A DNA stretch of 64,000 bases from Parapedobacter koreensis (GTDB taxonomy: Bacteria > Bacteroidota > Bacteroidia > Sphingobacteriales > Sphingobacteriaceae): assembly GCF_900109365.1 (NCBI RefSeq), contig NZ_FNZR01000009.1:124001-188000 (forward strand). Direction: 5' to 3'. The notes beneath the pieces were generated by a model that was not told the DNA's origin, did not search any database, and was given only the letters and a program-made list of their open reading frames with translations. Shown in pieces: positions 1-60,442 of the stretch. Every line of letters begins with the position of its first letter. Positions within the stretch are counted from its first letter, which is position 1. The position numbers were made by a program, and so were the translations under genes.

Positions 1-2586
1 GGGGTGGCCGTATCGAGTGTAAACGGTGAGCCAGGCCAAGCCCCCCGTATCCGCATTCGTGGAGGTACGTCAATTAACGCAAGCAGCGAACCGCTGTACG
101 TAGTTGACGGTTTTGCAGGCGGTTCGCCCCCTCCTCCGGAAGACATCCAGTCCATAGACATCCTGAAGGACGCTTCGGCCACAGCGATCTATGGATCTCG
201 CGGAGCCAACGGCGTTGTACTGATTACAACAAAAAGCGGTAAAGCCGGAAAAACCCAAGTGGGGTTTAGCAGCTCCTATTCTATCCAAGAAATAGGCAAG
301 AAGTTGACACTGCTCAACGGAGAACAGTTTGCCCAATACATCAACGAAATCTATCAAAATGACGGATCGTCCATTGTACCTTATCCCAACCCCGAGCAAT
401 ATGGCGCGGGTACAAATTGGCAAGATGCGGTTTTCCGGACGGGTGGATTGGGGAATAGCCAGCTTTCTGCCAGCGGAGGTACCGACGGAATCAAATTTTA
501 TACATCCGTCGATTACTTCAACAATAAAGGGATCATAACCAATTCGCTGTTCGATCGCATATCTGGTATGTCCAACTTGGACATCAAGCTAAATGACCGT
601 GTACGGTTCGGCACGAAGATGTTCTATTTACGTTCGAAGAGCGATGGCGTTTTGACACAAGAACCCAGCGGCGGGTCTACGGGTACCGGTGTGATTATGG
701 CCGCGCTAAAGTTCGAGCCTGTCCAGGACATCTTTGGCCCGGACGGGACGTATACGCTGTCTCAGGTTGGCGACCCGCACGACAACCCGGTAGCGGTTGC
801 CAGGGAACGCGAAAGCGGCAGGATAACCGATTTGTTCCAAGGCAATGCTTACGCCGAGCTGGATCTGTGGCGTGACCTGACATTTCGATCGACTTTTGGT
901 ATCCAGACCAACAATTACCGAACGGGCGAATATATCCCTACCACGTTGAATGCGGGAAGAAATTACGGGGGGATCGGCTCTATTGCCGCAAATAAGCAAA
1001 CGATGGTCATCAATGAAAATTATTTGACTTATGACAAACGCATTGACGAGTCAAATAGGCTCATGGTGATGGGCGGCTATTCCTATCAGTTTTCCCGGGG
1101 CGAATACTGGCGGGCTTCCAATCAGAATTTTGTCACCAATTCATTCTCGTATTGGAACCTGGGCGGCGGCTCTAACTACCAAAACGCTGCATCGAGCCTT
1201 ACCGAATGGGTACTATCGTCGTTCTATGGGCGATTAAACTACAACTTCAAGGACCGGTACCTGCTTACCTTCACCGGACGATACGACGGCTCCTCCCGTT
1301 TCGGCGCTAACAATAAATGGGCTTTTTTCCCATCCGGCGCCGTCGCATGGAACATAAAGGAAGAACCCTTCCTTCGGGATGCCGACATATTATCGCTGTT
1401 CAAAATCAGGGCAAGCTATGGGGAGACGGGGAATACAGAGATCGGCTCTTACCGATCCCTCGCCAAATTCTCGCCGTCGTTTACCATTATTAATGGCAAT
1501 CCCGTCAATGCCGTCTTGCCTACCGATGTGGCCAATGCCAACCTGACTTGGGAAAGCACCCAACAGACCGATATCGGGATAGATGTAAGTTTCTTCAACA
1601 GCCGGTTGTCTTTCACAGCCGACTACTATAATAAGAAGACCATGCAACTGCTTTATGACGTGCCGCTTCCTGAATACTCCGGGTATACAACCTCACTGCA
1701 AAACATAGGAAGCCTGCGCAACAAAGGGTGGGAATTTGCATTGTCTACCATAAACTTGGATCGCGACTTTAAGTGGAATACCGATTTCAATATTTCCTTC
1801 AACCGCAATAAGATCCTGAAATTAGCTGGGGGTGATTTGCTATACTCTACCGCCCCGGGGCATATGCTTTCTACGGATTCGCAGATCCTACGTGAAGGGC
1901 AAGTTATAGGGGCGTTCTACGGTTGGGTATTTGACGGCATTTATCAAACAAACGACGATTTCAGTGCGGAACCCCACAAAAATCCAGGAGATGTCCGGTA
2001 CCTGGATATCACAGGCCGGGACGCCGAAGGCAACCTTACCGGTGTTCCCGATGGCGTGGTGAATAATGACGACCGCCGGATTATCGGCAATCCACATCCC
2101 GATTTCGTGTTCGGGTTCAATAACGACTTCCGATTCAAAAACTTCGATTTCAACGTCTTTTTCCAAGGGAGTGTGGGCAATGACATGATGAACTATACCC
2201 GATTGGAACTGGACTGGATGGCGGGCAAGAGCAATGCAACAATTGATGCCTTGAACCGGTGGACGCCGACGAATACAGACACAGATATCCCAAGAGCCTC
2301 GGGCGCCAACAAATCGGAAGTATCATCCCGCAGCGTGGAAGACGGGTCTTACCTTCGGTTGAAGAACCTGACGATTGGATACAACATAGAAGAACCAAAA
2401 TTGCGGCATTTGGGCGTGTCAACGCTGAGGGTATACGTCAGTGCCCAAAATATCTGGACGGTCACCAACTATTCGGGCTATGACCCGGAAGTAAGTTTCC
2501 AAGATTCCAACATTAATGTGGGATTAGATTATGGGAGTTATCCCAATGTCAAATCATGGACATTAGGAGTCCGTATCGGTTTTTAG
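1..2586 (+). CDS. SusC-like TonB-dependent outer-membrane receptor, 5' end missing
   Basis: This is the C-terminal 861 codons of a SusC/RagA-type TonB-linked outer-membrane transporter. The frame is open from the first base, so the signal peptide, the carboxypeptidase-like domain and the TonB box lie upstream of the window. The visible part opens in the plug domain, with the family signatures RIRGG, YVVDG, ILKDASATAIYGSRGANG and VLITTKSG in the first 80 residues. A 22-strand-type beta barrel follows and ends in the aromatic terminus VRIGF. It lies 20 bases before a SusD gene and is read with it, so the pair should form a lidded importer for oligosaccharides. The neighbouring GH88 and lyase genes suggest a uronate-containing ligand; this is inference. 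Confidence 0.95.
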   Translation, partial: GVAVSSVNGEPGQAPRIRIRGGTSINASSEPLYVVDGFAGGSPPPPEDIQSIDILKDASATAIYGSRGANGVVLITTKSGKAGKTQVGFSSSYSIQEIGKKLTLLNGEQFAQYINEIYQNDGSSIVPYPNPEQYGAGTNWQDAVFRTGGLGNSQLSASGGTDGIKFYTSVDYFNNKGIITNSLFDRISGMSNLDIKLNDRVRFGTKMFYLRSKSDGVLTQEPSGGSTGTGVIMAALKFEPVQDIFGPDGTYTLSQVGDPHDNPVAVARERESGRITDLFQGNAYAELDLWRDLTFRSTFGIQTNNYRTGEYIPTTLNAGRNYGGIGSIAANKQTMVINENYLTYDKRIDESNRLMVMGGYSYQFSRGEYWRASNQNFVTNSFSYWNLGGGSNYQNAASSLTEWVLSSFYGRLNYNFKDRYLLTFTGRYDGSSRFGANNKWAFFPSGAVAWNIKEEPFLRDADILSLFKIRASYGETGNTEIGSYRSLAKFSPSFTIINGNPVNAVLPTDVANANLTWESTQQTDIGIDVSFFNSRLSFTADYYNKKTMQLLYDVPLPEYSGYTTSLQNIGSLRNKGWEFALSTINLDRDFKWNTDFNISFNRNKILKLAGGDLLYSTAPGHMLSTDSQILREGQVIGAFYGWVFDGIYQTNDDFSAEPHKNPGDVRYLDITGRDAEGNLTGVPDGVVNNDDRRIIGNPHPDFVFGFNNDFRFKNFDFNVFFQGSVGNDMMNYTRLELDWMAGKSNATIDALNRWTPTNTDTDIPRASGANKSEVSSRSVEDGSYLRLKNLTIGYNIEEPKLRHLGVSTLRVYVSAQNIWTVTNYSGYDPEVSFQDSNINVGLDYGSYPNVKSWTLGVRIGF

Positions 2587-2606
2587 TCAACTAAATAACG
2601 AAAAAA

Positions 2607-4118
2607 ATGAAACGCATTATAACCTACTTATTTATCATTGCGACTGCGTTGGTACCCGTGGCCTGTACTGACTTGGAGGAAAACCCACAAGGTATCTTGG
2701 CACCCGAATCATTTTTCAAGACCCAGGCTGATGCCGAAGCTGCGGTGATGGGTGGGTATTCCTGGATAGCCAGTGAATACCTGTATGGCCGTAGGCTACT
2801 GATTGGACTACAGCTCCTGAGCGATATGTGTGACATCGGCGATATCGGTACCGCTTCCGAACGGGTACAAATGAATAACTTCCAGACCGATGGCAACAAT
2901 GGAATTGTGACTACGCTTTGGCCCTATTTTTATCAGGTGATCGGCGCCGCGAATGCAGCCATAGACGGTATCCCCGCCGTCAGCATGGACGAAAACTATA
3001 AAAACCAGTTAATCGCTGAGGCAAAGATGTTGCGTGCCTTATGTTACTACCATTTGGTGCAGCTTTGGGGTGACATCCCTTACATCGGAGCATTTGTTTC
3101 CGACCCCAGTCAGATTTCGTCTATCTCGAAAACGCCGGCAGCAACGATTTACCAGCATATCATCGCCGATTGCGAAGACGGTATGCAGTACCTGCCCAAC
3201 ACGTATACCAACAACATCAGGAGTAGGCCCACGAGAGGCACAGCCCAGACGCTGCTGGCTTCCGTATACCTCACCATTGGCGATTACGGCAAAGCCCAGC
3301 AACATGCCGAGGACATCATCAGTAACGCAGGAACTTATGGATATGGACTGATGGAAGATTACCAAGACCTATGGCGAGCGGATTTGGGCGACCACAAGGA
3401 GCAGGTTTGGGCGGTAGATTTCAAAGGGAGTGTGCAGGGCTCCACTTATCCGCAAAATGTTGATTTCATGGCTCCAATTACAGGCGTGCGCGATGCCGAC
3501 ATGAACGGCTGGAGTGTTGTGGTAGCCTCTCCGGGTGTTTATGACAGTTTCGACGACCGGGATTATCGCAAAAAAGTCAGTTTCTTAACGGAAACGCCGG
3601 TCAACGGTGTAATGACGCCCTATACCGAATGGCGATGGCCCCGAATACACATTGCAAAGTGGTGCCTGTATCCGGGCGCCAACGCTACCGAAGATGGCAC
3701 CTTGTCAGATCATAATTACACGATTTTCCGCTATGCAGAAGTCTTGTTGATTGCGGCGGAAGCGATCAATGAAGCACAAGGCGGGCCAAATGCCAGTGCC
3801 TATGCATACATCAATGCCGTACGGGCACGAGCCAGAAATTCTGGTGGCACGCCTGCCGCCTTCCCGGCAGACCTGCAGCCGGGCATGTCGCAGGAAGCGT
3901 TCCGCGCGGCCGTACGCGAAGAACGGCGCGTAGAACTTGCGTTTGAATGGAAACGATGGTATGACCTCGTGCGCTGGGATATTGCCGAGGAAGCATTCAC
4001 CGGGCCAGATTCGTACGAACCACGGCCTAATTTCCGAAAGCACCATACTTTGCTGCCTCTTCCACAGGACGAGCTGAACCGGAATCCAAACCTCCTTCCT
4101 CAAAACGAAGGATATTGA
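2607..4118 (+). CDS. SusD/RagB-family glycan-binding lipoprotein
   Basis: This 503-residue surface lipoprotein has a short signal peptide ending in the lipobox VACT, so Cys20 should be lipidated. The body follows the SusD plan: an N-terminal SusD-like domain with TPR-type helices, and a C-terminal region with the hallmark EERRVELAFEWKRWYDLVRW and the tail LLPLPQDELNRNPNL. SusD proteins sit as a lid over their SusC partner and capture glycan. It is the partner of the receptor just upstream (20-base gap) and is followed 27 bases later by a GH88 gene on the same strand. The three are probably one transcript. The start is the only ATG compatible with the signal peptide. Confidence 0.95.
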   Translation: MKRIITYLFIIATALVPVACTDLEENPQGILAPESFFKTQADAEAAVMGGYSWIASEYLYGRRLLIGLQLLSDMCDIGDIGTASERVQMNNFQTDGNNGIVTTLWPYFYQVIGAANAAIDGIPAVSMDENYKNQLIAEAKMLRALCYYHLVQLWGDIPYIGAFVSDPSQISSISKTPAATIYQHIIADCEDGMQYLPNTYTNNIRSRPTRGTAQTLLASVYLTIGDYGKAQQHAEDIISNAGTYGYGLMEDYQDLWRADLGDHKEQVWAVDFKGSVQGSTYPQNVDFMAPITGVRDADMNGWSVVVASPGVYDSFDDRDYRKKVSFLTETPVNGVMTPYTEWRWPRIHIAKWCLYPGANATEDGTLSDHNYTIFRYAEVLLIAAEAINEAQGGPNASAYAYINAVRARARNSGGTPAAFPADLQPGMSQEAFRAAVREERRVELAFEWKRWYDLVRWDIAEEAFTGPDSYEPRPNFRKHHTLLPLPQDELNRNPNLLPQNEGY

Positions 4119-4145: not shown

Positions 4146-5384
4146 ATGAAAAATAGTATGTTCAGTTTAATATTGGCAATCTTCTTCTGCTCGGTTGACT
4201 CATTGGCACAGGAACAAGTGGGACAACGGCTGTCCGAAACATTTGTTAGGCAAAAGCTGGATGACGCCATACAACAATATCGGATACTAATTCCGCAGGT
4301 TCCTGATGGATTTTTCCCCAGCACTTATCGCAAGGATGACGATTCATTAGGATTGGTAGAAAGCAAATCATGGGTGTCGGGTTTTTACCCCGGCACCTTA
4401 CTGTACCTGTATGAATACAGCGGGAATGACGATTTACTCGCGGAAGCTACCAAACGGCTCAACCTATTGGAAAAAGAAAAAAACAACACGGGCACACATG
4501 ATCTGGGTTTCATGCTTTATTGCAGCTTTGGCCATGCCCTACGCCTTACGGGTAGTCCGGACTACGAGCGGGTGCTGTTGACGGGCGCTGAGTCCTTGGC
4601 TTCGCGGTATCATCCGAAGGCGGGCTGTATACGATCCTGGGATACCAATGCCGCAACCGACCAATGGCAGTTTCCGGTCATCATTGATAATATGATGAAC
4701 CTCGAGATGCTGAATTGGGCATCACGCTTTTCAGGAAACCAAACGTATCAGGTTATTTCCGAAAGACATGCCAATACGACGCTGGAAAATCATTTCCGCG
4801 AAGATAACAGTTCCTACCATGTCATCGATTACGACACGCTGTCCGGAAAAGTAAGGCATAAACATACCCATCAAGGTGCCCATCACGAATCGGCATGGGC
4901 ACGCGGTCAGGCGTGGGGGCTCTATGGTTATACGATGATGTATCGGGATACGCAGAAAGAAAGCTATCGTCAACAGGCCAAAAAAATTGCCGATTTCATC
5001 CTCAATCATCCCAACTTGCCGGCAGATAAAGTACCCTATTGGGATCTAAGTATCGCACCGGAGGCCAATACGCCCCGCGATGCTTCCGCCGCCGCCATTA
5101 CAGCCTCTGCATTATTGGAGTTGTCCGGCTACGTAGCGGAGCAAGAAAAAGAAACTTATGAAAAAGCTGCGGAACAGATGATATTCAGCTTATCGCAAAC
5201 GCCCTATAGTGTCGAAACGGGCGCTTGCGGAGGATTTATCCTCGACCATTCCACAGGCCACCTACCCGCGAACCGCGAAATTGATGTGCCGCTGTCTTAT
5301 GCCGACTATTATTACGTAGAGGCGTTGACCCGATATTTACGGATGTTGCAGGGGAAACCGATCATCGCTTATCCAAAATACTGA
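4146..5384 (+). CDS. GH88 unsaturated glucuronyl hydrolase (first copy)
   Basis: This 412-residue enzyme has a Sec signal peptide (cleavage near DSLA-QEQ). It belongs to glycoside hydrolase family 88, which hydrates and so removes 4,5-unsaturated uronic acids left on the non-reducing end by polysaccharide lyases. The two aspartates used by this family are present: Asp119 in THDLGF and Asp181 in IIDNMMN. The WARGQAWGLYGY segment and the aromatic-rich (alpha/alpha)6 barrel also fit. Length is normal for the family. It closes the susC-susD-GH88 transcript, and the next gene has its own promoter. The periplasm is the likely location. A second GH88 copy at 14522 suggests that two linkages or substituents are handled. 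Confidence 0.93.
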   Translation: MKNSMFSLILAIFFCSVDSLAQEQVGQRLSETFVRQKLDDAIQQYRILIPQVPDGFFPSTYRKDDDSLGLVESKSWVSGFYPGTLLYLYEYSGNDDLLAEATKRLNLLEKEKNNTGTHDLGFMLYCSFGHALRLTGSPDYERVLLTGAESLASRYHPKAGCIRSWDTNAATDQWQFPVIIDNMMNLEMLNWASRFSGNQTYQVISERHANTTLENHFREDNSSYHVIDYDTLSGKVRHKHTHQGAHHESAWARGQAWGLYGYTMMYRDTQKESYRQQAKKIADFILNHPNLPADKVPYWDLSIAPEANTPRDASAAAITASALLELSGYVAEQEKETYEKAAEQMIFSLSQTPYSVETGACGGFILDHSTGHLPANREIDVPLSYADYYYVEALTRYLRMLQGKPIIAYPKY

Positions 5385-5509: not shown

Positions 5510-8500
5510 GTGAAAAGCGCTCGATTCATTACCGTATCTTTACTCCTATTATGCGTTGCCTCTATATCCCTGGCCCAACAAAAACACCGCCTGAATGAAA
5601 ACTGGGAGTTCGTGCGGCAGGACCTCGGTGGCACCTGGGAGGCTGTAAGGCCTTACAAACCGGGTGATCCGGAAGCTTCCCCCAGTTGGACAGCGGTGAC
5701 CTTACCGCATTGCTTCAATGCCACGGATGCCGTAGCTCCTGATGTCAATTACTACCAAGGGCCCGGTTGGTACCGTACGACGCTCCCCATCAACAACCCT
5801 TATGAAAACGGTCGCGTCCTGCTCCACTTCGAAGGTGCCGGACAAAAAACGGAAGTTTATATCCATACCCAGAAAGTCGCCGAACATGTCGGCGGCTACG
5901 ATGAATGGACGGTTGACATTACCGATGCTGTCGCGGCATTCAAAACTTCTAAGGCCTTTACCGAACAATTCAACAAACAGGTGCCGTTGGTTATCCGTTG
6001 CGACAATTCCCGCGATCTGGAGCTCATCCCATCCGACTTGTCGGACTTCAACCTCTATGGTGGCATCTATCGCTACCTCAACCTGGTGTACGTCCCTGCG
6101 CTATCCATAGCTCAGTTATTCGCCTCGGCCACGACGGAGGCCGATGGCACCAACGGCCAGGTCACGCTAAATGCCCGTTTACATAATCCAAGCCAAGTAC
6201 GGGAAGCCGCTATCACGGCACAACTTGTAGACCCAAAAGGCATGGTCGTTGCAACCCATCAGCAGCACCTCACGGCATTCAACGACCAAATTGACCTCTC
6301 AGGGTTCACCGTAAAACGCCCCGCAATGTGGTCGCCAGCGCAGCCACAGCTTTACACTGTCCGCATCGTCGTAGCGTCCGGCCAAGATACCTGCGTCCAT
6401 ACCGAACGCATTGGCTTCCGTCATTTCGAGTTTGCTACCAAAGGTCCATTTTACCTCAACGGCCAGCGACTGCTGCTCCGGGGTACCCATCGCCATGAAG
6501 ACCATGCCGGTGTGGCTGCAGCCATGACGGAAGACCTGATCTGGCAGGAAATGCACATGATGAAGGAAATGGGCGTCAATTTTATCCGCCTGGGCCACTA
6601 TCAGCAGTCGCGCATCGTGCTGGAAGCCTGTGACAGCCTTGGCATCCTCGTGTGGGAAGAAATCCCCTGGTGCCGCGGCGGTCTCGGCGGCGAGCAGTAC
6701 AAACAGCAGGCCCGCCGGATGCTTACCAACATGATTGAGCAACATTACAACCATCCCGCGGTAATTATCTGGGGGTTGGGCAATGAAAACGATTGGCCCG
6801 GCGATTTCGAGGTGTTCGATCAGCAGCAAATCCGCACCTTCATGAAGGAGTTACACGACTTATCACACCGGATCGACCCTTCACGCAAGACGGCCATCAG
6901 GCGCTGCGATTTCTGTAAGGACATCGTGGATGTCTACTCGCCCTCTATCTGGGCGGGTTGGTACCGGGGTATCTATACGGATTACAAAACCGCTACCGAA
7001 GCTGAATTTGACAAGGTTGATCACTTCCTTCACGTGGAATGGGGCGGCGATAGCCATGCCCGGCGGCATTCCGAAAACCCGGACAATGGACTATCAACCG
7101 TCATGCACAGCACCACAGCTGATGAGCGGGCGGGCGACGCGTCGCTATTCGGTGGTCCTGCACGTGTATCCAAAGACGGCGACTGGAGTGAAAGCTACAT
7201 CTGCAACCTCGTCGATTGGCACCTCAAGGAGCAGGAAACCATGCCTTGGCTCACCGGTACCGCCTACTGGCCATTCAAGGATTTCTCCACCCCCATCCGA
7301 CCGGAAAACCCGGTGCCTTATGTCAACCAAAAAGGTGTTGTGGAGCGCAATTTCAACAAAAAGGAATCGTACTACATCTTCCAGTCCTATTGGACCGAAA
7401 AACCTATGGCCCATATTTATGGCCATAGCTGGCCTGTCCGCTGGGGTGAGCAAGGGGAAGAAAAGATGGTGAAGGTCTATTCCAATTGCACGGAAGCCGA
7501 GTTGTTTGTCAATGGTGTAAGCCACGGTATCCGTAAGCGTGACAGTCCGGATTTCCCCGCAGCGGGTCTACGGTGGATGGTCGTCTTCCAAGAAGGTGAA
7601 AACAAACTGGAGGTCGTAGCGAAGAAAGATGGAATCACCGTGACAGACAGCATCATCCAGCATTACCAGACAGCCAAATGGGATGCCCCATCATCTGTAC
7701 GGCTTCGCACACTGAACGTCCACGCAGATACGCTAACCATTGAAGCGTTGCTGGTAGACAAAAACGGCGTACCCTGTCTCGATGCCGTAAACAACATCCA
7801 TTTCTCTGCCGCAGGCGATGGCTACCTGCTTGCTGATTTGGGCACATCGGACGGCTCACGCAAGGTACAAGCCTACAATGGACGCGCCCTCATCCGGCTG
7901 AAACGCACGGGCAGCCACGTGATAGCCACCGCCGCTGTCGAAGGACTGGAAACGGCGATATTGCCGCTTCCCACTCCCTATTCACGGGATACGATTGCAG
8001 CCACCATCATCCATACCTTGCGGGAGAAAACGTTACAGGACGCCCAATGGGCGCTCACGCAACAACCCGAAACTGTTACCGCCAATATCGCCAAGCGCAG
8101 TGCAGGCAGCAAACATGATTTCTACTCGGAAGGCGATTATTGGTGGCCAGATCCCAATAATCCCGATGGGCCGTACATCCGCAGGGATGGGCTCACCAAT
8201 CCGGACAATTTCGTCGATCACAGGCTGGCCATGATCCGCTTCAGTCGCATCGTCGGGGCGCTGGTGTCTGCCTGGAAACTGACCGGCGACGAACACTATA
8301 TCCGTCATGCCCTCCAGCATATCATAGCATGGTTTATCGACCCGCGCACCCGGATGAACCCTTCCCTGCTTTATGCGCAGGCCATCAATGGGCATGTCAC
8401 GGGAAGGGGAATCGGCATCATTGATACCATCCACCTTATCGAGGTGGCTCAAGCCTTACGGTTACTGGAAGAAGCCGGACTACTGGATGACGATATCCTG

Positions 8501-9091
8501 CATGGCACAAAAAAATGGTTCAGCGATTACCTCTTCTGGCTGTCCACCCATCCCTACGGGATTGAGGAGATGAATGCCAAAAATAATCATGGCACATGCT
8601 GGGTAATGCAGGTAGCCGCCTTTGCCCGCTATACACAAAACAACGTCTTGCTCCGCCGATGCGCCGAACAGTATAAGACCGTTCTGCTGTCCCAGCAAAT
8701 GGCAAGCGATGGAAGTTTCCCACTCGAAACCGAACGTACCAAACCTTACGGGTATTCACTGTTCAATTTGGACGCCATGACGACGATTTGCCATTTGCTG
8801 TCAGACAACGGAAACAACCTCTGGACGTACCAACTAGACGACGGCCGCTCCATTGAAAAAGGAATCCATTATATGCTTCCGTATGTACAGGATAAAAACA
8901 GGTGGCCGTATAGCCGGGACGTCATGTATTGGAATGAATGGCCCGTTGCTCAGCCGTTCCTGTTTCTGGGCGCGCTTGCCTACGGCCATACGGAGTTGTT
9001 GAACACCTGGGTTGCATTAGAGCACCGCCCATCGGAAGACGAAGTCATTCGCAATCTACCCTTGCGTTATCCCCTGTTGTGGCTTCCTTGA
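5510..9091 (+). CDS. Secreted GH2 glycosidase fused to an alginate_lyase-type polysaccharide lyase
   Basis: This is a 1193-residue protein starting at GTG, with a Sec signal peptide (cleavage near SLA-QQ). Residues about 25-690 are a GH2 enzyme with jelly-roll, Ig-like and TIM-barrel domains. The acid/base is Glu426 in WGLGNEN and the likely nucleophile is Glu510 in HVEWGGD. An Ig-like linker follows. Residues about 828-1193 form a complete alginate_lyase-type (alpha/alpha) toroid with YWWPDPNNPDGPYIRRDG, NNHGTCW (Asn1026/His1027) and YGYSLFN (Tyr1082), a set like that of PL5/PL38-type lyases. The frame is continuous, with no sign of a missed stop. The lyase half would cut uronate chains and the GH2 half would remove a beta-linked sugar. 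Exact substrates are unknown; GH2 covers galactosidases, glucuronidases and mannosidases. Confidence 0.88.
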   Translation: MKSARFITVSLLLLCVASISLAQQKHRLNENWEFVRQDLGGTWEAVRPYKPGDPEASPSWTAVTLPHCFNATDAVAPDVNYYQGPGWYRTTLPINNPYENGRVLLHFEGAGQKTEVYIHTQKVAEHVGGYDEWTVDITDAVAAFKTSKAFTEQFNKQVPLVIRCDNSRDLELIPSDLSDFNLYGGIYRYLNLVYVPALSIAQLFASATTEADGTNGQVTLNARLHNPSQVREAAITAQLVDPKGMVVATHQQHLTAFNDQIDLSGFTVKRPAMWSPAQPQLYTVRIVVASGQDTCVHTERIGFRHFEFATKGPFYLNGQRLLLRGTHRHEDHAGVAAAMTEDLIWQEMHMMKEMGVNFIRLGHYQQSRIVLEACDSLGILVWEEIPWCRGGLGGEQYKQQARRMLTNMIEQHYNHPAVIIWGLGNENDWPGDFEVFDQQQIRTFMKELHDLSHRIDPSRKTAIRRCDFCKDIVDVYSPSIWAGWYRGIYTDYKTATEAEFDKVDHFLHVEWGGDSHARRHSENPDNGLSTVMHSTTADERAGDASLFGGPARVSKDGDWSESYICNLVDWHLKEQETMPWLTGTAYWPFKDFSTPIRPENPVPYVNQKGVVERNFNKKESYYIFQSYWTEKPMAHIYGHSWPVRWGEQGEEKMVKVYSNCTEAELFVNGVSHGIRKRDSPDFPAAGLRWMVVFQEGENKLEVVAKKDGITVTDSIIQHYQTAKWDAPSSVRLRTLNVHADTLTIEALLVDKNGVPCLDAVNNIHFSAAGDGYLLADLGTSDGSRKVQAYNGRALIRLKRTGSHVIATAAVEGLETAILPLPTPYSRDTIAATIIHTLREKTLQDAQWALTQQPETVTANIAKRSAGSKHDFYSEGDYWWPDPNNPDGPYIRRDGLTNPDNFVDHRLAMIRFSRIVGALVSAWKLTGDEHYIRHALQHIIAWFIDPRTRMNPSLLYAQAINGHVTGRGIGIIDTIHLIEVAQALRLLEEAGLLDDDILHGTKKWFSDYLFWLSTHPYGIEEMNAKNNHGTCWVMQVAAFARYTQNNVLLRRCAEQYKTVLLSQQMASDGSFPLETERTKPYGYSLFNLDAMTTICHLLSDNGNNLWTYQLDDGRSIEKGIHYMLPYVQDKNRWPYSRDVMYWNEWPVAQPFLFLGALAYGHTELLNTWVALEHRPSEDEVIRNLPLRYPLLWLP

Positions 9092-9197: not shown

Positions 9198-12100
9198 ATG
9201 AGCATACGTTCTACAACAAGACGAAGCTACGCCTTCGTAATCACACTGCTGGTTTGTTGGGCAAGCATCGCCTACCCACAGACGCCCATTACTGTGACAG
9301 GAAAAATCACTTCCCAAGATGGGACACAGGCGTCCGGTGTCAGTGTATCCGTTAAAGGCACGAGTACAGCTGCCGCATCGGACGCCGAAGGCAACTACCG
9401 TATCAACGCACCGGGCAACGGCATCCTCGTTTTTACGCAACTGGGCAGTGTCTCGCAGGAAATTCCAATCGACAACCGTACCGTTATCGACGTCACATTG
9501 GCAGAAGACGTCTCCACGCTCGATGAAGTAGTGGTGGTCGGGTTTGGTACACAGAAAAAAGTGAACCTGAGCGGCGCCGTAGCCCAGGTAACCGGCGCGG
9601 AGATTGCCAATAGACCCACACCCAGCCTTACCGGCGCCCTGCAAGGTGTGCTGCCGGGTGTTACGGTTATCCGCGGCAGCGGCCAGCCTGGCGATGAAGG
9701 ATTAAATGTACGTATCCGCGGTTTTACCTCGGCAAATACCGCTCAAGCCTTGGTGCTTGTAGACGGTATCCAAATGGACATGAACCTATTGAATCCCGAC
9801 GATATTGAGTCGATATCGGTACTAAAGGATGCTTCGGCGAAAGCCATTTATGGCGCACGGGCCGCAGCCGGTGTCATCCTCATCACCACCAAAAGGGGAA
9901 AAGAAGGCCGCACCCGTATCAACTTCAACAATTATTATGGGATAAACATTACCGCCCGCCAACCCCAGCGCCTCAACTCGTGGGATGAACAAACGCTCAT
10001 TGACGAATCCCGTTTTAACGCCACAGGTACCCCTGAGTTCAGCGAGGAGCAAATTGAATGGTTAAAAAACCCAAATTTCTCCTATCGGCCCAACCCTGCA
10101 CAAGATCGCTGGGAATATTTTGACAACAACAACTGGCTGAAGGAAGGCATGGACAAGGTCAATACCATGCAAAACTACTCCCTCTCCGTAGGAGGTGGAA
10201 CCGATCGGCTCAATTACCTCGTCTCCGGAAGTTACTACCAGCGTGACGGGGTATTGCGTTACGGCCCTGACGACAATTCCCGCTATAACCTGAAAGCCAA
10301 TATCAATGCGGAACTGAACAAATACCTGAGCGTGGAAGTAGTTGCGGGTTACATCGGCTCTTATATCAACCGGAATGCCTTCGGAACCGAACAAATCATC
10401 AATCGGCTATATCGAAGTAGGACGCGCCAAAGCCTGTATACACCCGAAGAGGACATGACCGGGCAGCCTTACAACGGCGACCTTCAAATCAATCCCGTTG
10501 ACATCCAGAAGAACGGCGGCTTGGAAACACGCGACTATGAGACTTTCACGGGTAGGCTGAACCTCAAAGTAAAAAACGTCGTGAAAGGACTCACATTGGA
10601 TCTGGTAGGCTGGCGAAACCAGGACTATTATTCCATGGAAAACAATAGACGGAGCATTACGTGGTGGGGTCGGACAACCAATACCACTCGTTTCCAGGTA
10701 AACGTACCCAACAGCATGAGCATGACCAAAAACCGGGGTTACCACAACAACCTGCAAGGCTACCTGACTTACAACCTCCAGTTGGCTGACAGCCATAATT
10801 TCACGCTGATGGGCGGCGCGTCGTTTGAAGAATACCGCAAGGATGAATTTGGAGCAAGCGCTCAATCCATGATTACAAACGATTTCTTCAGTTTCAACTT
10901 TGCGGACCCGCTCACCAAAACCAACCGCGATTTGGTGGAAACCTGGGCTATGGGTTCTTTTTTCGGGCGGTTGAACTACAACTTCCGGGAAAAGTACCTG
11001 TTTGAGGCTTCTTTCCGCTACGACGGCAGCTCACGCCTGGCACCCGAAAACCGCTGGGAGATCTTCCCCTCATTCTCCGCTGCCTGGCGTATTGACCAAG
11101 AAAACTTCATGCAGGACCAATCCGTTATTTCTGCACTTAAGCTTCGGGGGTCATGGGGGCGGTTGGGTAACGGTTCTGTCCTAGGATTGTACGACTATAT
11201 TCCGTTGCTGATTAGCGGATTGACTGTGACAAACCAATCGAATTTGGTTTTCAATGACTTACGGACGCAATACTTTTTCCAGAACACCTTGGCCTCACCC
11301 CAAAAAACCTGGGAAACCGTGCAGGAAGCCAATGTCGGTATTGATGCGGGTTTCTTGCGGGATCGATTGACACTCACCGCCGATTATTACGTAAACCGCA
11401 ATAAAAATATGCTGGCCCAATTGAATGTACCGAATATCATTGGTGTAGGTGTATCCAGCGTGAACATCGGCGAGCTGAAAAGCTGGGGCTGGGAGCTGGA
11501 TGTCAAATGGCGCGACAACATCAATAACCTGGGCTACCGCTTAGGGTTCAACATTTCGGACAATCAGAATGAGTTGGTCAAATACGATGGCCGCAATTCG
11601 ATAGGCAACGGCGGAGCCGTTAGTCTTCTGGAAGGTTATCCCCTCAATAGCGTATGGGGCTATCGTACCGATGGTTATTTCCAAACACAGGAAGAATACG
11701 ATGCCTACAAAAGCAATGTATCCACGCCATTCTTTCCCGGCAACGCGGGCGCTGGTGACGTAAAATACCTCGACCTGAACGGCGATGGCGTCATCTCCGC
11801 AGGCGAAGGCACACCCGAAAACCCCGGCGACTTGGTTTACTTAGGCACCACCAATGCTCGTTATACCTATGGACTGGATCTGGGGCTCAATTGGAAAAAT
11901 TTCGACCTGTCCGTCTTTTTCCAGGGAGCGGCCAAACGGGCATTCCTGATTGATGAAGGCACGCTATCTCCCATGCTGGGTACGGCCGACATGCCGTGGA
12001 CTATCCATATGGATCGGTGGACGCCCGAAAACCCCGATGCGCTATTCCCACGGATGTACCAGACCAGTGCACATAACTTCCGGCCTTCAGACAAGTGGGC

Positions 12101-12323
12101 GCAAAATGGCAGCTATATCCGCCTGAAAAACGTGCAACTGGGTTACAACATCCCGATAAACCGCAGCTATGTGCAGCAGATGCGGGTCTTTTTTTCCGGC
12201 CAGGACCTTTGGGAATACACCAAGGTACTGAGTGTCTTTGATCCGGAAGTAGGAAATAACGTAGAGGCTACAGCCTATCCGTTCTTCCGTACCCTTTCCT
12301 TTGGTTTAAATGTCACCTTCTAA
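9198..12323 (+). CDS. SusC-like TonB-dependent outer-membrane receptor (second)
   Basis: This is a full-length 1041-residue SusC/RagA transporter. It has a signal peptide to about residue 28, a CarboxypepD_reg-like beta-sandwich at about 30-105 (VTGKITSQDG), a TonB box DEVVVVGFG at 109-117, and a plug with VRIRG, LVDGIQ and LKDASAKAIYGARAAAGVILIT. A 22-strand barrel follows and ends in SFGLNVTF. It imports oligosaccharide across the outer membrane using TonB/ExbBD energy. It opens an operon with susD, a lipoprotein, a GH88 enzyme and the HTCS, all on the plus strand with gaps of a few tens of bases or less. The candidate operator at 9101 precedes it. Confidence 0.97.
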   Translation: MSIRSTTRRSYAFVITLLVCWASIAYPQTPITVTGKITSQDGTQASGVSVSVKGTSTAAASDAEGNYRINAPGNGILVFTQLGSVSQEIPIDNRTVIDVTLAEDVSTLDEVVVVGFGTQKKVNLSGAVAQVTGAEIANRPTPSLTGALQGVLPGVTVIRGSGQPGDEGLNVRIRGFTSANTAQALVLVDGIQMDMNLLNPDDIESISVLKDASAKAIYGARAAAGVILITTKRGKEGRTRINFNNYYGINITARQPQRLNSWDEQTLIDESRFNATGTPEFSEEQIEWLKNPNFSYRPNPAQDRWEYFDNNNWLKEGMDKVNTMQNYSLSVGGGTDRLNYLVSGSYYQRDGVLRYGPDDNSRYNLKANINAELNKYLSVEVVAGYIGSYINRNAFGTEQIINRLYRSRTRQSLYTPEEDMTGQPYNGDLQINPVDIQKNGGLETRDYETFTGRLNLKVKNVVKGLTLDLVGWRNQDYYSMENNRRSITWWGRTTNTTRFQVNVPNSMSMTKNRGYHNNLQGYLTYNLQLADSHNFTLMGGASFEEYRKDEFGASAQSMITNDFFSFNFADPLTKTNRDLVETWAMGSFFGRLNYNFREKYLFEASFRYDGSSRLAPENRWEIFPSFSAAWRIDQENFMQDQSVISALKLRGSWGRLGNGSVLGLYDYIPLLISGLTVTNQSNLVFNDLRTQYFFQNTLASPQKTWETVQEANVGIDAGFLRDRLTLTADYYVNRNKNMLAQLNVPNIIGVGVSSVNIGELKSWGWELDVKWRDNINNLGYRLGFNISDNQNELVKYDGRNSIGNGGAVSLLEGYPLNSVWGYRTDGYFQTQEEYDAYKSNVSTPFFPGNAGAGDVKYLDLNGDGVISAGEGTPENPGDLVYLGTTNARYTYGLDLGLNWKNFDLSVFFQGAAKRAFLIDEGTLSPMLGTADMPWTIHMDRWTPENPDALFPRMYQTSAHNFRPSDKWAQNGSYIRLKNVQLGYNIPINRSYVQQMRVFFSGQDLWEYTKVLSVFDPEVGNNVEATAYPFFRTLSFGLNVTF

Positions 12324-12335
12324 GTTGAAAATGTC

Positions 12336-13988
12336 ATGAAAAGAATCATTCATAATATCCTGTTTTTATCGAGTCTAGCGATTTGCTTCGGCAGTTGCAG
12401 CCTAGATCGGTTCCCCGAGAGCGAATTTTCAGATGCCGATTTTTGGAACACCGAGTCAGATCTGATAAACGCTGCCAACCGACATTACCAATTGCTTGCC
12501 GGTTTTCAGTTAGACAGTCGGGCTGAAGACAACGTCAATCAGACGCCCAACCAAACAAGCAACGGAAGCCGTACCATTCCCAACACGAGCGACGACTGGA
12601 ACCATCCCTACCGTGATATTTTCACGGCCAATAATATCCTGGAAAAAGGCGGCAGAGCGCAGGTATCCGAAGCTGTCCGCAATCGCTACTTCGGAGAAGC
12701 GCGTTTTTTCCGTGCTTATGCGTATTTCAGGTTGGTACAGAAGTATGGCGACGTTCCCCTCTTGCTGGAAACGCTGGACATCACCGATGAAGCACTGAAC
12801 ATGGGCCGTACACCCAGGGCTGAGGTGGTACAGGCCATCTACGACGACCTGGATTTCGCCGCGCAATGGCTTCCCTCGCGCGACGAACTGCCCGCCGCAC
12901 AATACGGGCGCGTGACCAAAAGCACCGCCTGGTCGTTGAAAGCGCGTATCGCCTTATATGAGGGCACGCGGGCTAAATTCCACAACGACGGTGATTGGCA
13001 GCAACACCTCACCTTGGCGGTGCAGGCAGCGAGTGAAGTGATGGGGCAAGGCCATGTTCTGTATCCAGACTACGGCGCGCTCTTCCAGCACGAAGCCGAA
13101 GGGCCCAACAACACGGAAAACATCTTCGTCAAAATCTATGGCGTCAGCTCGGACAACCTCATCGTGGGGCACAACACGTCCCGCGATATGGAAAACGGCC
13201 GCAATGCGCCCACACGCAACCTCCTGCGCCAGTACCTCTATGCCGATGGCCTGCCTGCATTCACCGCCGAAAACACGCCATCCAATACGCGGTCTGTGTT
13301 CTTTGTAGAAGAAAGTGAGGAGACGAGCTATAACACCATCTTCGAAAACCGCGATCCGCGTATGAGCATGACCCTGTTCCGCGCCGGCGAAGAAGCCTAC
13401 CTGGGGCCCTGGATCCCGCGCACATCCCTTGGATCACGGTCGGCCTATGCCGCCAAAAAAGGATTCAGCATTCTCGATAGGCAGGTAAACGGCGCAGCTA
13501 CCGTGGATAAAATACTCATCCGCTACGGCGAGGTATTGCTCACGTATGCCGAAGCCAAGTATGAGCTGGATGGCGCTATCAGTGATGCCGACCTCGATCT
13601 CACCATCAACGCCTTACGGCAACGTGCAGGTTTTGACGCGCGCCTTACGAATGCGTTTGCCTCGGCCAACGGATTGGACATGCGCGAAGAAATACGCCGG
13701 GAACGTACCGTGGAGTTGGCGTTGGAGGGATTCCGGTATGACGACCTTATACGCTGGAAAACCGCCGAGAACCTGCTTCCCAGCCAGTTGCTGGGAGCCA
13801 AGTTCAATGCAGATGAATGGTTGGGAGCTGATCAATCCAGCCTCAACCTCAACGAAAATGAAATCCTCATTGTCGAAGATACTAACGTCCGCGCATTCAA
13901 CCCTGCACGCGACTACCTCTACCCCATCCCGTTCAATGAAATTACCCTGAGCGGAGGCAACGTGATACAAAACCCCAATTGGCAATAA
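12336..13988 (+). CDS. SusD/RagB-family glycan-binding lipoprotein (second)
   Basis: This 550-residue lipoprotein has the lipobox FGSC (Cys20) followed by the usual SusD opening with the motif DADFWNTESD. The central region has TPR-type helices (FRAYAYFRLVQKYGDVPLL), and the C-terminus carries RRERTVELALEGFRYDDLIRW and the DYLYPIPFNEI segment typical of the family. It starts 12 bases after its SusC partner. It should bind glycan at the cell surface and close over the SusC barrel. It is longer than the first copy (503 residues), so the two importers probably take different fragments of the same polymer. Confidence 0.95.
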   Translation: MKRIIHNILFLSSLAICFGSCSLDRFPESEFSDADFWNTESDLINAANRHYQLLAGFQLDSRAEDNVNQTPNQTSNGSRTIPNTSDDWNHPYRDIFTANNILEKGGRAQVSEAVRNRYFGEARFFRAYAYFRLVQKYGDVPLLLETLDITDEALNMGRTPRAEVVQAIYDDLDFAAQWLPSRDELPAAQYGRVTKSTAWSLKARIALYEGTRAKFHNDGDWQQHLTLAVQAASEVMGQGHVLYPDYGALFQHEAEGPNNTENIFVKIYGVSSDNLIVGHNTSRDMENGRNAPTRNLLRQYLYADGLPAFTAENTPSNTRSVFFVEESEETSYNTIFENRDPRMSMTLFRAGEEAYLGPWIPRTSLGSRSAYAAKKGFSILDRQVNGAATVDKILIRYGEVLLTYAEAKYELDGAISDADLDLTINALRQRAGFDARLTNAFASANGLDMREEIRRERTVELALEGFRYDDLIRWKTAENLLPSQLLGAKFNADEWLGADQSSLNLNENEILIVEDTNVRAFNPARDYLYPIPFNEITLSGGNVIQNPNWQ

Positions 13989-14006: not shown

Positions 14007-14522
14007 ATGAAAACACGAAATATATTCATTACCTTGCTGCTGCTATCCAGCGGATGGTTCTTTGCCTGCGAGGATAAGGATTACCCTGCCGGACTTCCGG
14101 AATATGAACACCATTACTATATTGTGTACGTACCCAACAACAACAGCGGCGTAACGATCAATAGGACACAAACCGATTTGGTCAAATTTCCCGTTCAGTT
14201 TTATTCCGAATTTACACGCAATTACGATGCGGTGGCCCACTATGCCGTGGTGACGCCTGATGTACCCAATCCGGCTGTGCTTGGCGAAGACTTTCAAATC
14301 GTGGACAGGGATGGGAATACCATCCAGCCCAACAGTCAGGGAAAATTTTCCCTGACATTCCCACAGGCCAGAAAAGCAACGGATACGGTGTATGTGAAGC
14401 TCCTCAATAACCCCGAGCCGGGAAGCCGTGTGGTTGAAATCAACTTCGAAGACCACATTACGCCGGAGTACCGGGTCGATATTTTTTCCACCGCTTTCAG
14501 GCGGACGTTAACCATAGATTGA
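14007..14522 (+). CDS. Small surface lipoprotein of the polysaccharide locus (SusE/DUF4843-like)
   Basis: This 171-residue protein has a signal peptide and lipobox FFAC (Cys21). The rest is beta-rich, with a Calx-beta/Ig-like look (YVKLLNNPEPGSRVVEINFE) and a conserved-style ending of the kind seen in DUF4843 or SusE-position proteins. Such proteins downstream of susD are usually surface glycan-binding accessories. There are no catalytic motifs. It lies 18 bases after susD. Its TGA stop (14520-14522) shares one base with the ATG of the next GH88 gene, which implies translational coupling. The family assignment is tentative; the lipoprotein nature is clear. Confidence 0.7.
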   Translation: MKTRNIFITLLLLSSGWFFACEDKDYPAGLPEYEHHYYIVYVPNNNSGVTINRTQTDLVKFPVQFYSEFTRNYDAVAHYAVVTPDVPNPAVLGEDFQIVDRDGNTIQPNSQGKFSLTFPQARKATDTVYVKLLNNPEPGSRVVEINFEDHITPEYRVDIFSTAFRRTLTID

Positions 14523-15745
14523 TGCAACACCTCATTAAAACAAGTTTAATCTCCGGATTGCTGCTCCTGTCCCGCATCGGCGTTTCCCAAGACCTCGATG
14601 TGGGGCGGGTAATCCGTTTCAGTGAGGGCCAAATAGGACTCCTGCTGGAAGAAACGCGGTTGCTGACTTCTTCGGACGGACGGGTATCCCCGCGTACGCT
14701 GGATGCCGACGGCCGGTTACACCTGGTAGCACCCACCGATTGGACCAGTGGCTTTTTCCCGGGTATCTTGTGGCAGTTGTACGCCTTTACGGAAGCCGAT
14801 AAATGGCTGGATGCCGCCCGGGAAATGACCACCAAGCTGGAAAATGAAAAATTCAATGGCCGCACACACGATATGGGATTCAAAATCTACTGCAGTTATG
14901 GACAGGGCTATCGCCTGACGGAAGATCCCCGCTATCGGGACGTAATCGTTCAGGCCGCACGAACTTTGGCTACGCGTTTCAATCCCAATGTCGGCTGTAT
15001 CCGCTCCTGGGACCACAATAGCCACCGCTGGGATTTTCCCGTGATCATTGACAACATGCTCAATCTCGAACTGTTGTTTGCGGCTACCAAGCTTACCGGC
15101 GATTCCTCATTTTATTACATAGCTGTGTCCCATGCCAATACCACCTTGAAGAACCATTTCAGGCCGGATGGCGGCTCCTACCATGTCATCGACTACCATC
15201 CTGAAACGGGCGAGGTAGCACACCGCAATACCCATCAGGGATATAGCGATGAGTCGACCTGGGCGCGTGGACAGGCTTGGGCGCTGTATGGCTACACGAT
15301 GTGCTATCGCGAGACGAAGGATGAAAAATACCGGCATAAAGCACTGGCCATTGCACAATGGCTGATGCGGCATCCGCACATGCCCGCGGATGGCGTCCCT
15401 TACTGGGATTTCGATGCTCCAAAAATTCCCGATGAGCCACGTGACGCTTCAGCTGCGGCCGTTATCGCCTCGGGCCTGTACGAACTCTGTACATTCACCA
15501 CCGATTCGCTGGCATTGAAGCAATACGCAGACCATGTAGTCCATAGCCTTGCTACCCATTACAAAGCCGATGCCGACACCCATCATGGATTTGTATTGCT
15601 GCACAGTACCGGCTCCAAGCCGGCAGGTTCAGAGGTGGATGTGCCCCTCGTCTATGCCGACTATTACTTTCTGGAAGCACTTTCGCGCAAGCAACGGTTG
15701 GAGCGGTCAGGCGATCCTTCCTTGGCGTTGCTTTTGACAAGATAA
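14522..15745 (+). CDS. GH88 unsaturated glucuronyl hydrolase (second copy)
   Basis: This 407-residue GH88 enzyme has a Sec signal peptide (cleavage near GVSQ-DLD). The ATG at 14522 is preferred over the in-frame TTG at 14519 because it forms a one-base stop/start overlap with the preceding gene. The catalytic pair is conserved as Asp117 in THDMGF and Asp177 in IIDNMLN, together with WARGQAWALYGY. It is clearly paralogous to the enzyme at 4146 and similar along its length, but diverged. It removes the unsaturated uronic acid produced by a lyase, most simply the one fused to GH2 at 5510. The two copies may differ in linkage or in tolerance of sulfation or acetylation, which cannot be told from sequence alone. 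Confidence 0.92.
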   Translation: MQHLIKTSLISGLLLLSRIGVSQDLDVGRVIRFSEGQIGLLLEETRLLTSSDGRVSPRTLDADGRLHLVAPTDWTSGFFPGILWQLYAFTEADKWLDAAREMTTKLENEKFNGRTHDMGFKIYCSYGQGYRLTEDPRYRDVIVQAARTLATRFNPNVGCIRSWDHNSHRWDFPVIIDNMLNLELLFAATKLTGDSSFYYIAVSHANTTLKNHFRPDGGSYHVIDYHPETGEVAHRNTHQGYSDESTWARGQAWALYGYTMCYRETKDEKYRHKALAIAQWLMRHPHMPADGVPYWDFDAPKIPDEPRDASAAAVIASGLYELCTFTTDSLALKQYADHVVHSLATHYKADADTHHGFVLLHSTGSKPAGSEVDVPLVYADYYFLEALSRKQRLERSGDPSLALLLTR

Positions 15746-15782
15746 TTGTTGATATTGCGGGCTTTTAACAAACCAATTGACC

Positions 15783-18700
15783 ATGCGGATAAGTCCGGCT
15801 AACTTTTTAATGCTTGCCCTTGTACTCCTTACGGGCCAGTTGCTCTTTGGTCAAGCGACTGACAAAAACCTGCGGTTTACACGTATTGGCTTGAGGGACG
15901 GCCTCTCACAAAGCAGCGTCTTCTCCATCTGTCAGGATTACCTGGGCTTCATGTGGGTGGGTACGCGTGACGGGCTTAATCGTTATGACGCTCGCAACAT
16001 CAACATTTACCGCAACATTCCCACCGATAGCGCATCGTTGACAGACAATTACATCCTGTCGCTCCTCGAAGACAGCAAAAAGCGCCTGTGGGTCGGTACC
16101 GCTGCCGGGCTCAACCAATATGATCGGCAACGTGATCGGTTTGTACGGTTTCCCTTAGCCAATAACCAATCGGGAAACACCACGTCCGAGCCTATCATAT
16201 CGGCTATTGTCGAAGACCGGCATGGCCGCGTGTGGGTAGCGACTTCTCACGGGCTATACTGTTGGGACGAGCATGCTGATGCACAACAGCTTATACAAGT
16301 ATTTGATGCCAACATGTACAGCAATCGGGGAGTCCCGCTGGGCAGTAATAATGTGCAGTCTTTCTATGAAGATGCGACAGGTAACATCTGGCTTGGTACA
16401 GTAAATGGCGTGCTGATATTTGCACCGTATCAGTCACGCCAGCCATTACGGCTCGCTAAACATTTTCGCCGCGTTCCCGGGGAGCTCAATAGTGAAGATG
16501 TACGGGTGGTACAGGAAGTGGGCGATGGCATCTTCTGGATGGGCACCAAACAGGGTGGCATCAATGTGTATGACACACATACAAAAACCTTTACCTACCT
16601 CCAACATCAACCGGATGCCAACGGTCGATCCTTGGCCAACAACGACGTGCGAAGCATCATCAATGATCGCTTCGGCGGCTATTGGATTGGCACCATCAAT
16701 GGCCTCAATTATTACACCGAGGAAACGGGCTTTACCACGTACACGGCAAATGACCATGACCAATTTTCACTCAGCAACAATTCCATCCGGCCCATCTTCC
16801 AAGACAAGCGGGGTTCTGTTTGGATCGGGACCTATTACGGTGGGATATGCGTGTACGACCGGCATATTCCCGTTTTTCAGAACTACGCACACAGTCCCTA
16901 TGTAAGTAGCCTCAGCTATAATGTCATAAGTGGCCTACTGGAAGACGAGGCCCACAACCTTTGGATAGGTACGGAAGGCGGTGGCCTGAACTACATGGAT
17001 CGTGCCGGCAACGTATACAACCATTTCAAGCACGACCCCAAAATACCGGGTTCGCTGAGCCACAACCATGTCAAGTCGTTACACCTAGACAGACAGGGCA
17101 ACCTTTGGGTAGGTACCTACAACGGCGGGCTTAACTTGCTGACAAAAGGGACATCCTACTTCCAGCATATCAAGCACGACCCTGCAATCGCTCACTCCTT
17201 GTCAAACAACAACGTCTATGCCATTAAAGAAGATGCACAGGGTAATATGTGGTTTGGCACTTATGGCGGTGGCCTGAATCTCAAAAAAAATAGGGCCGGC
17301 ATGCACTTTGAAAGCTACCGCGCAGGAAAAACGGGCCGCTACCACATCAGCTCCGATCTGGTAAGGACCGTTTTTATCGACAGCCGAGGCAATCTCTGGG
17401 TCGGTACCGAAGATGGGCTCAATCTCCGACGCGCAGGATCGGATCAGTTCGAGGTATTCCGTTTTTCGCTGGATGATCCGGGCAGCATCAGTGGCAATAT
17501 CATCATCAGTATATTTGAAGATGCTGAACATCGGATATGGTTTGGCACTTACAAAAACGGGCTCAACCAGTACCACTACGATACCGGAACCTTTACCCAC
17601 CTAACCGAGGACGACGGCTTGCCGGGCAATAATATCTTCGGCATATTGGAAAACGAGGGACTGCTATGGCTGAGCACAAACAATGGCATCTGTGCGTTTG
17701 ATCCCACGTCAGGGGATATCAAATCATACAATACCAAGGATGGCCTGGGGGGCAATGAATTTTCCATCGGCGCGTACTGCAAGACCTCAGACGGCCAACT
17801 TATATTTGGTGGCTCACACGGGATTACCTGCTTCAATCCACACGATTTCAGCGCGAGCACATACGTGCCGCCTATTATCTTTACGGATTTCCGCCTTTTC
17901 AATAAACCCGTCACCCCCGGCGGCAACAGCGTGCTGAGCAAGCCAGTGTCCATGACGGACACCATCGTGCTCTCCCACGCCCAAAACATTTTCACAGTGG
18001 AGTTTTCGGCCATCAATTACGTGCTTCCCGAAAAAAACAAATATGCCTACCGACTGGAAGGCTTGGAAAGCGAGTGGAACTATGTCCAGACGCCCACGGC
18101 TACCTATACCAACCTCGATGCCGGGACGTATACGCTCCTGGCCAAAGGAGCGAGCAACGATGGCATCTGGAATGAGGTGCCTGCCCGCCTTACGATTAAG
18201 ATATTGCCTCCGCCGTGGAAAACATGGTGGGCTTACCTTGGCTATGCCTCATTAGTGGCCGTAGGCATTTATTTGATTATCCGGTTTACCAAAATCCGGA
18301 GCCGTCTTGAACATCAACTGGAACTGGAACACCTGGAAAACGAAAGGCAGCGGGAGATCAACGAAATCAAGCTCAACTTTTTCACCAGTATTTCCCATGA
18401 ATTCCGCACGCCGCTCACACTGATCCTCGCGCCTGTACAGCACCTGCTCACACATGCAAAGCTGGAAGAACACGCACGGACGATGATGAGCACCGTCAAA
18501 AATAACTCGTTGCGGCTGCTCAACCTGATCAACCAGTTGCTGGACTTCCGCAAGCAGGAAAGTGGGAATTTCCAGCTTGCCGTGACAGCCCATGACCTGG
18601 TGGCATTCGCCGACCGCATTGTCGCCGAATTCGGCCCCTATGCCGACGAACAGCACATCCGTTTTGAATACCGTAAGCCGGCATCACCCATTGACGTGTG

Positions 18701-60414: not shown

Positions 60415-60442
60415 GTTCAAAAGCGTTGTAAGTCCTTTTACT

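Follow-up and report, generated by a model that had tools for sequence, protein, structure and literature searches.

A GH2 beta-glucuronidase-like enzyme joined in frame to a PL38-like lyase in a Parapedobacter polysaccharide utilization locus

Why would a bacterium carry a glycosidase and a polysaccharide lyase in a single polypeptide chain? The question is raised by a gene of Parapedobacter koreensis, a soil-type bacterium, within a stretch of 64,000 nucleotides (assembly GCF_900109365.1, contig NZ_FNZR01000009.1, positions 124,001 to 188,000 of the forward strand), hereafter the window. The gene encodes a glycoside hydrolase of family GH2 fused to a lyase resembling polysaccharide lyase family PL38. 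Its product is probably an enzyme with two activities, targeted for export, that belongs to a small polysaccharide utilization locus (PUL) for a beta-glucuronate-rich glycan. We infer the activities, location, order of action and substrate from what is observed: an intact fusion, its recurrence, the enzyme families, conserved catalytic residues, low ratios of nonsynonymous to synonymous substitution (dN/dS) and a conserved gene module. The gene and its parts are as follows.

5510..9091, + strand: GH2-PL38 fusion gene, 1193 aa, GTG start, one intact frame
5510..5575, + strand: probable Sec signal peptide (MKSARFITVSLLLLCVASISLA/QQ), read by eye from the sequence
5576..7978, + strand: GH2 beta-glucuronidase-like half, residues about 23-823 (Pfam, 6d7j match, 6dxu fold match)
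6782..6787, + strand: N425-E426, GH2 acid/base region (alignment with E. coli UidA)
7037..7039, + strand: E510, GH2 nucleophile (alignment with E. coli UidA)
7325..7336, + strand: N606-x-K608-G609, NxKG motif (alignment with E. coli UidA)
7976..8014, + strand: junction, residues about 823-835, short and poorly conserved (alignment of the fusions; structure model)
7985..9088, + strand: PL38-like alginate_lyase-fold half, residues about 826-1193 (Pfam PF05426, structure matches)
8582..8590, + strand: N1025-N1026-H1027, lyase active site, H1027 corresponding to H243 of BoPL38 (alignment with BoPL38)
8753..8755, + strand: Y1082, lyase catalytic tyrosine, corresponding to Y298 of BoPL38 (alignment with BoPL38)

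An earlier note on this DNA had described a complete GH2 enzyme and a complete alginate lyase-type toroid in an unbroken frame, which is confirmed by the single 1193-aa frame. The domain search that it proposed for the two halves gives the full GH2 set in the N-terminal half and Alginate_lyase (PF05426) in the other, where the profile is covered nearly end to end (3-275 of 275). In the predicted structure of the fusion, a helix begins at residue 826. An assembly artefact or frameshift is ruled out, as the same fusion occurs in 12 genomes. The gene is a true in-frame joining of two enzymes that are neighbouring genes in many relatives. Judging by its probable signal peptide, the protein is targeted for export and is probably periplasmic.

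The closest structures and aligned residues mark the GH2 half as beta-glucuronidase-like. Its best match is 6d7j, a Parabacteroides merdae beta-glucuronidase (GUS), at 1215 bits over residues 22-823, while Bacteroides uniformis beta-glucuronidase 3 (6d1p) scores 1068 bits. N425-E426, E510 and N606-x-K608-G609 are invariant in the alignment with the reference GUS, E. coli UidA, where E426 and E510 correspond to E413 and E504. The NxKG motif and these GH2 residues are among the criteria for recognising beta-glucuronidases, and more open-site glucuronidases, in contrast to Loop 1 enzymes, act on carbohydrates (PMC6712278). For the P. merdae GUS, the kcat on p-nitrophenyl glucuronide is 0.088, the lowest among the table rows shown (PMC6351562); such a low value would suit a polysaccharide enzyme, assuming that the assayed protein is 6dxu. 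No paper that mentions 6D7J turned up in the open-access literature.

The lyase half is PL38-like by its nearest structures in both sequence and fold, 3nfv/3nnb and BoPL38 (8bdq), of which 8bdq is titled PL38 and the nearest, 3nfv/3nnb, alginate lyase only. The catalytic bases of BoPL38 are Y298 and H243 (PMC13169297). Of the BoPL38 residues mutated for crystallography, Y91, D108, Q173, N242 and Y298 are identical in the lyase half and H297 is glycine; mutant names were taken from structure titles, and the numbering of Y91 and D108 was counted by hand. The key residues of both halves, on which the earlier note had made its reading depend, align with catalytic ones: E426/E510 with those of UidA and H1027/Y1082 with those of BoPL38.

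Within Parapedobacter, 4 of 9 genomes carry the fusion; in a second genus of the family, 8 of 93 do. A sample of 400 genomes from the order, with two candidates scored per genome and matches of at least 1239 bits listed, gave the same 12 among the matches listed. In overlapping samples of the phylum and the class (395 genomes each, two candidates scored in each), no fusion was found except that of the window, GH2 frames of 1089 aa in genome G1051 and 903 aa in G644 being left unopened (G and L numbers denote genomes and loci). The 12 fusion frames span 1191-1229 aa, and all 11 active-site positions checked are identical in every one. Both halves are constrained, with dN/dS of 0.025-0.118 for the GH2 half (7 of 11 pairs computable, the rest saturated) and 0.026-0.095 for the lyase half (6 of 11 computable, the rest saturated).

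Trees (FastTree, with long-branch warnings) place the 12 fused lyase halves on one side of a branch with support 92, and the 12 fused GH2 halves in one clade with support 99, in which a single unfused Parapedobacter copy (G008) is nested. Taken together, they are best read as one fusion event and one loss, in G008; independent fusions in the two genera are not favoured by this branch and clade. Long frames were also searched for further fusions. The order sample listed 19 GH2 matches that stop close to residue 820 although their open frames run to 1219-1685 aa. Of these and one more copy, all opened, 19 proved to be separate neighbouring GH2 and lyase frames, the other (L139) being GH2 only in the stretch covered. 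Of 36 PF05426 matches, spread over 22 of 296 genomes, four occupy frames longer than 550 aa: the window's, one in G659, in a lyase fused to the unsaturated glucuronyl hydrolase family GH88, and two in one stretch of G605 that is interrupted by stops and is no fusion.

The genes surrounding the fusion in the window, all on the same strand, are listed below.

4..4118, + strand: second SusC/SusD pair, upstream of GH88a; its SusC gene runs in from before the window start (Pfam)
4146..5384, + strand: GH88a, unsaturated glucuronyl hydrolase family (Pfam)
9198..12323, + strand: SusC-like transporter, in a conserved position after the fusion (Pfam, locus comparison)
12336..13988, + strand: SusD-like lipoprotein (Pfam, locus comparison)
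14007..14522, + strand: putative lipoprotein, 171 aa, no Pfam or NCBIfam match, conserved in the module
14519..15745, + strand: GH88b, unsaturated glucuronyl hydrolase family, part of the module at 7 of 12 fusion loci (Pfam)
15777..20015, + strand: hybrid two-component sensor-regulator (HTCS) (Pfam)

A SusC/SusD pair, carbohydrate-active enzymes and a regulator thus lie in one co-oriented cluster, the arrangement by which a PUL is recognised. Orthologous SusC, SusD and 171-aa lipoprotein genes lie 3' of the fusion in all 12 genomes, followed by the HTCS, which comes after GH88b in seven. The 171-aa putative lipoprotein follows SusD at each of the 12 fusion loci and at some unfused ones, and is a candidate glycan-binding protein, perhaps of the cell surface. 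In G227, the SusC of the module is in two frames (L175:2677-5801). Five genomes (G005, G006, G097, G074 and G155) have no carbohydrate enzyme other than the fusion from its start to the HTCS, and carry GH88 genes elsewhere. Neighbours beyond the module vary: a SusC/SusD-sulfatase group lies upstream of the fusion in G097, G074 and G155, a GH18 gene lies directly upstream in G231, G303 and G180 (three of eight second-genus loci) and not in G387 or G227, and a GH20 gene follows the HTCS at the end of the G003 locus. Some 39 kb away and outside the fusion locus, the window also holds a separate SusD-like_2/TonB-receptor pair (58951-63928, - strand).

In the mechanism that we propose, SusC and SusD would import oligosaccharides rich in glucuronic acid (GlcA), and the HTCS would sense them. 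The PL38-like half would cut internal bonds at glucuronate by beta-elimination, using Y1082 and H1027 and leaving unsaturated ends. These lyase-made ends would be taken off by GH88, encoded beside the fusion or elsewhere in the genome. The GH2 half would act as a retaining exo-beta-glucuronidase (E426, E510, with N606/K608 binding the carboxylate) that strips saturated non-reducing beta-GlcA. Fusion would hold both cuts together, in equal amounts.

Whether the linkage itself matters is a separate question. The earlier note had stated that lyases and exo-glycosidases are normally separate proteins, and this holds, since relatives carry the halves as separate, often adjacent genes. Across 79 loci, each centred on a lyase gene from outside Parapedobacter and taken from the best 80 of 590 matches after removal of P. 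indicus (contig ends cut some of them), the same GH2 is present in 28, always on the strand of the lyase. GH88 is present in 49 (48 on the same strand), both families occur together in 24, and in seven the GH2 match ends 500 bp or less upstream of the lyase match. A second set of 45 loci (L103-L147), picked from the order sample as best matches or for long frames, contains eight fused loci, 32 with GH2 directly before PL38, often then GH88, and five with GH2 only in the stretch fetched. There is a real chance, if less than an even one, that the fusion is functionally neutral: two enzymes of one operon joined by loss of a stop codon, their reactions uncoupled, and separated again in some lines. 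Tandem genes of this kind seem to serve the same function, the short junction shows poor conservation, and the nested G008 copy indicates that the fusion can be lost. Against neutrality stands a fused clade that spans two genera with both halves constrained, but what this supports is the activities, not their linkage.

Several observations weigh against a two-activity enzyme of this kind. The GH2 half scores 304 bits against the NCBIfam equivalog BetGlucuronLacZ4, far below its cut-off of 950 bits, which rules out only that equivalog and not GUS as a class. Its catalytic region (about residues 513-612) is of low confidence in the structure model. A GH2 of this kind is absent from the stretch covered in 51 of the 79 lyase-centred loci, among them L026, which has the orthologous SusC, SusD and 171-aa lipoprotein, and in 5 of the 12 genomes the fusion has no GH88 beside it. 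For the lyase half of the window's fusion, dN/dS could not be computed, since its three pairs were all saturated. In addition, H297 of BoPL38 is replaced by G1081 in the fusion, and specificity may differ. This substitution could also suggest that one half has lost its activity and serves merely as a binding module, which we regard as very improbable: glycine likewise occupies the position in 3nfv, the checked active-site positions are invariant, and the measurable dN/dS values of both halves are low.

Other fusions join the same three families in different pairs. GH88-GH2 fusions occur in G513, with both domains found by Pfam, and in G472, G760, G487 and G483, identified by BLAST (the G483 gene runs off the contig end). 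These five fusions, each beside a separate PL38 gene, lie at L157:5123-8671, L158:4906-8451, L159:6120-9674, L160:4377-7907 and L163:5604-8714, the last meeting a contig end. The G659 protein is a GH88-PL38 fusion of 758 aa (L162:7869-10145) beside a separate GH2 (Pfam). Near the GH88-GH2 gene of G513 lie KduI, SDR and sulfatase genes, and near that of G472 a PfkB kinase and a KDPG/KHG aldolase; the KduI/SDR and PfkB/KDPG-KHG aldolase neighbours are consistent with catabolism of unsaturated uronates. Further architectures were also observed. At L161:5466-8753, a GH2 of the same broad group is fused to DUF4861 (1095 aa) and flanked by GH88 and two PL38 genes, and a free-standing DUF4861 gene lies near the GH88-GH2 fusion of L157. 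An 899-aa protein at L164:2789-5488 contains GH88 and a C-terminal region of about 480 aa without a Pfam match.

Which glycan would such an enzyme act on? The earlier note had suggested a GH2-sensitive residue alternating with, or decorating, a uronic acid chain. A uronic-acid glycan is indicated; a separate decorating sugar is less likely, since the GH2 half is beta-glucuronidase-like and the residue removed is most likely glucuronate itself. Its proposed polymers (a glucuronan, an ulvan-like polymer or an exopolysaccharide) fare unevenly. The neighbours seen in relatives (GH18, GH20, GH29, GH95 and sulfatase genes) do not point to glucuronan in particular, and weaken a GlcA homopolymer as sole substrate. 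Nothing specific to ulvan was seen, and a bacterial exopolysaccharide stays among the candidates. The candidate target polymers are a Mucorales-type polyuronide, a glycosaminoglycan (GAG)-like polymer and a bacterial exopolysaccharide.

The neighbours of the 79 lyase-centred loci include GH29 (20), GH31 (19), PF14592 (16), GH95 (16) and GH3 (8), counted from clusters with the family read from one representative each. PF14592 is a chondroitinase-B-like family, which we take to be PL6. Searching 181 records with the G231 GH18 found matches in second-genus loci and in five unfused loci, each beside PL38, GH2 or GH88. The GH18 genes of the unfused loci carry a DGVDIDWE motif (L109:5133-6266, L121:306-1430, L009:2622-3749, L026:9160-10308 and L073:10354-11475). 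Six genomes with GH18 beside PL38 or GH2, selected for that hit, have one to four GH18 genes each; G387 and G227 have none. The G003 GH20 hit 2 of the 181 records, the unfused match being L028, where GH20 follows PL38.

A fungal polyuronide of the Mucorales type, in which beta-1,4-GlcA chains that also contain fucose, mannose and galactose sit within a wall of chitin and chitosan, is a tentative candidate. The fusion would then deal with the GlcA chain, and accessory enzymes encoded elsewhere with the other components. Mucorales exopolysaccharide is essentially beta-1,4-linked GlcA with 9-25% fucose, plus mannose and galactose, and the wall contains chitin and chitosan, although the GlcA of mucoran is alpha-linked (PMC6433966). 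Beta-1,4-glucuronan lyase activity is reported for two characterised PL38 enzymes (PMC13027841), and the GH29, GH95, GH31 and GH3 neighbours in relatives, like the GH18 genes adjoining fused and unfused loci, would match such a wall. However, fucosidase, GH18 and GH20 genes are all missing from the window module, the one GH18 of the window genome lies on another contig, and the upstream sulfatases of G097, G074 and G155 do not fit.

A GAG-like polymer, with GlcA alternating with N-acetylhexosamine as in hyaluronan, chondroitin, heparosan or a bacterial capsule, is likewise a tentative candidate. PL38 members have been reported to act on alginate, glucuronan, hyaluronan and chondroitin sulfate (PMC13027841, PMC11790493); RiPL38 degrades the last two (PMC13027841), and the PL38 Amuc_0778 and the GH105 Amuc_0863 are reported to be active on all GAGs but 'heparin sulfate' (PMC11790493). 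The GH20, GH18 and sulfatase neighbours would fit this polymer, as would a Parapedobacter locus in G004 (L099:7664-10918), where a PL8-PL38 fusion is followed by the GH88 closest to GH88a among the loci scanned (65% identity) and accompanied by a Hepar_II_III gene. Against it, a GH20 was seen near the fusion at 1 of 12 loci (the search used the single G003 GH20, which distant GH20s could escape), and the GH29 and GH95 neighbours are left unexplained.

A broader proposal, which we think rather unlikely to hold in full, is that the fusion, as sole carbohydrate enzyme of the SusC/SusD/HTCS module in those five genomes, makes both the internal and the terminal cuts of a beta-GlcA glycan, possibly the Mucorales polyuronide. 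The joining of GH2, PL38 and GH88 in all three pairwise ways would then mark an uncharacterised glucuronan-type pathway in Bacteroidota. Through the fusion, three families come together in one pathway: GH88, the polyspecific PL38 lyases and a beta-glucuronidase clade that includes gut members of solved structure. If the activities hold, it offers a way to test which glycans these GH2 and PL38 clades really consume, in gut species too, and a naturally occurring two-step enzyme for degrading polymers of glucuronic acid. The earlier note knew of no described enzyme with this pairing, and no description of a GH2-PL38 pairing was found in the open-access literature, where papers on PL38 and GH2 are, by title and abstract, mostly genome and carbohydrate-active enzyme surveys. 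The fusion looks to be a new combination of known enzyme families.

Known systems resemble its parts. The P. merdae (6dxu/6d7j) and B. uniformis (6d1p) beta-glucuronidases are full-length counterparts of the GH2 half, with 54-62% identity in fold alignments and a domain end likewise near residue 822, but these solved chains (830 and 814 residues) lack a lyase domain. The lyase half matches the fold and catalytic His/Tyr of BoPL38, the PL38 alginate lyase of Bacteroides ovatus CP926 (8bdq and the 9fh/9fi entries), and of BACOVA_01668 (3nfv/3nnb), which are chains of about 380-404 residues; BoPL38 has H297 where the fusion has glycine. In Pedobacter, Mucilaginibacter, Hymenobacter and other Bacteroidota, the same families lie on one strand, often in the order GH2-PL38-GH88, as separate genes. 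PL17 loci with GH2, GH105 and GH30_4 (PMC5966431) similarly bring a lyase, a GH2 and an unsaturated-uronyl hydrolase into one PUL, although the lyase family differs and the enzymes are described there as separate genes. The GH88-GH2 and GH88-PL38 fusions (L157-L160, L162 and L163) hold the same trio as the window with a different pair joined, and their GH2 is about 38-42% identical to that of the window.

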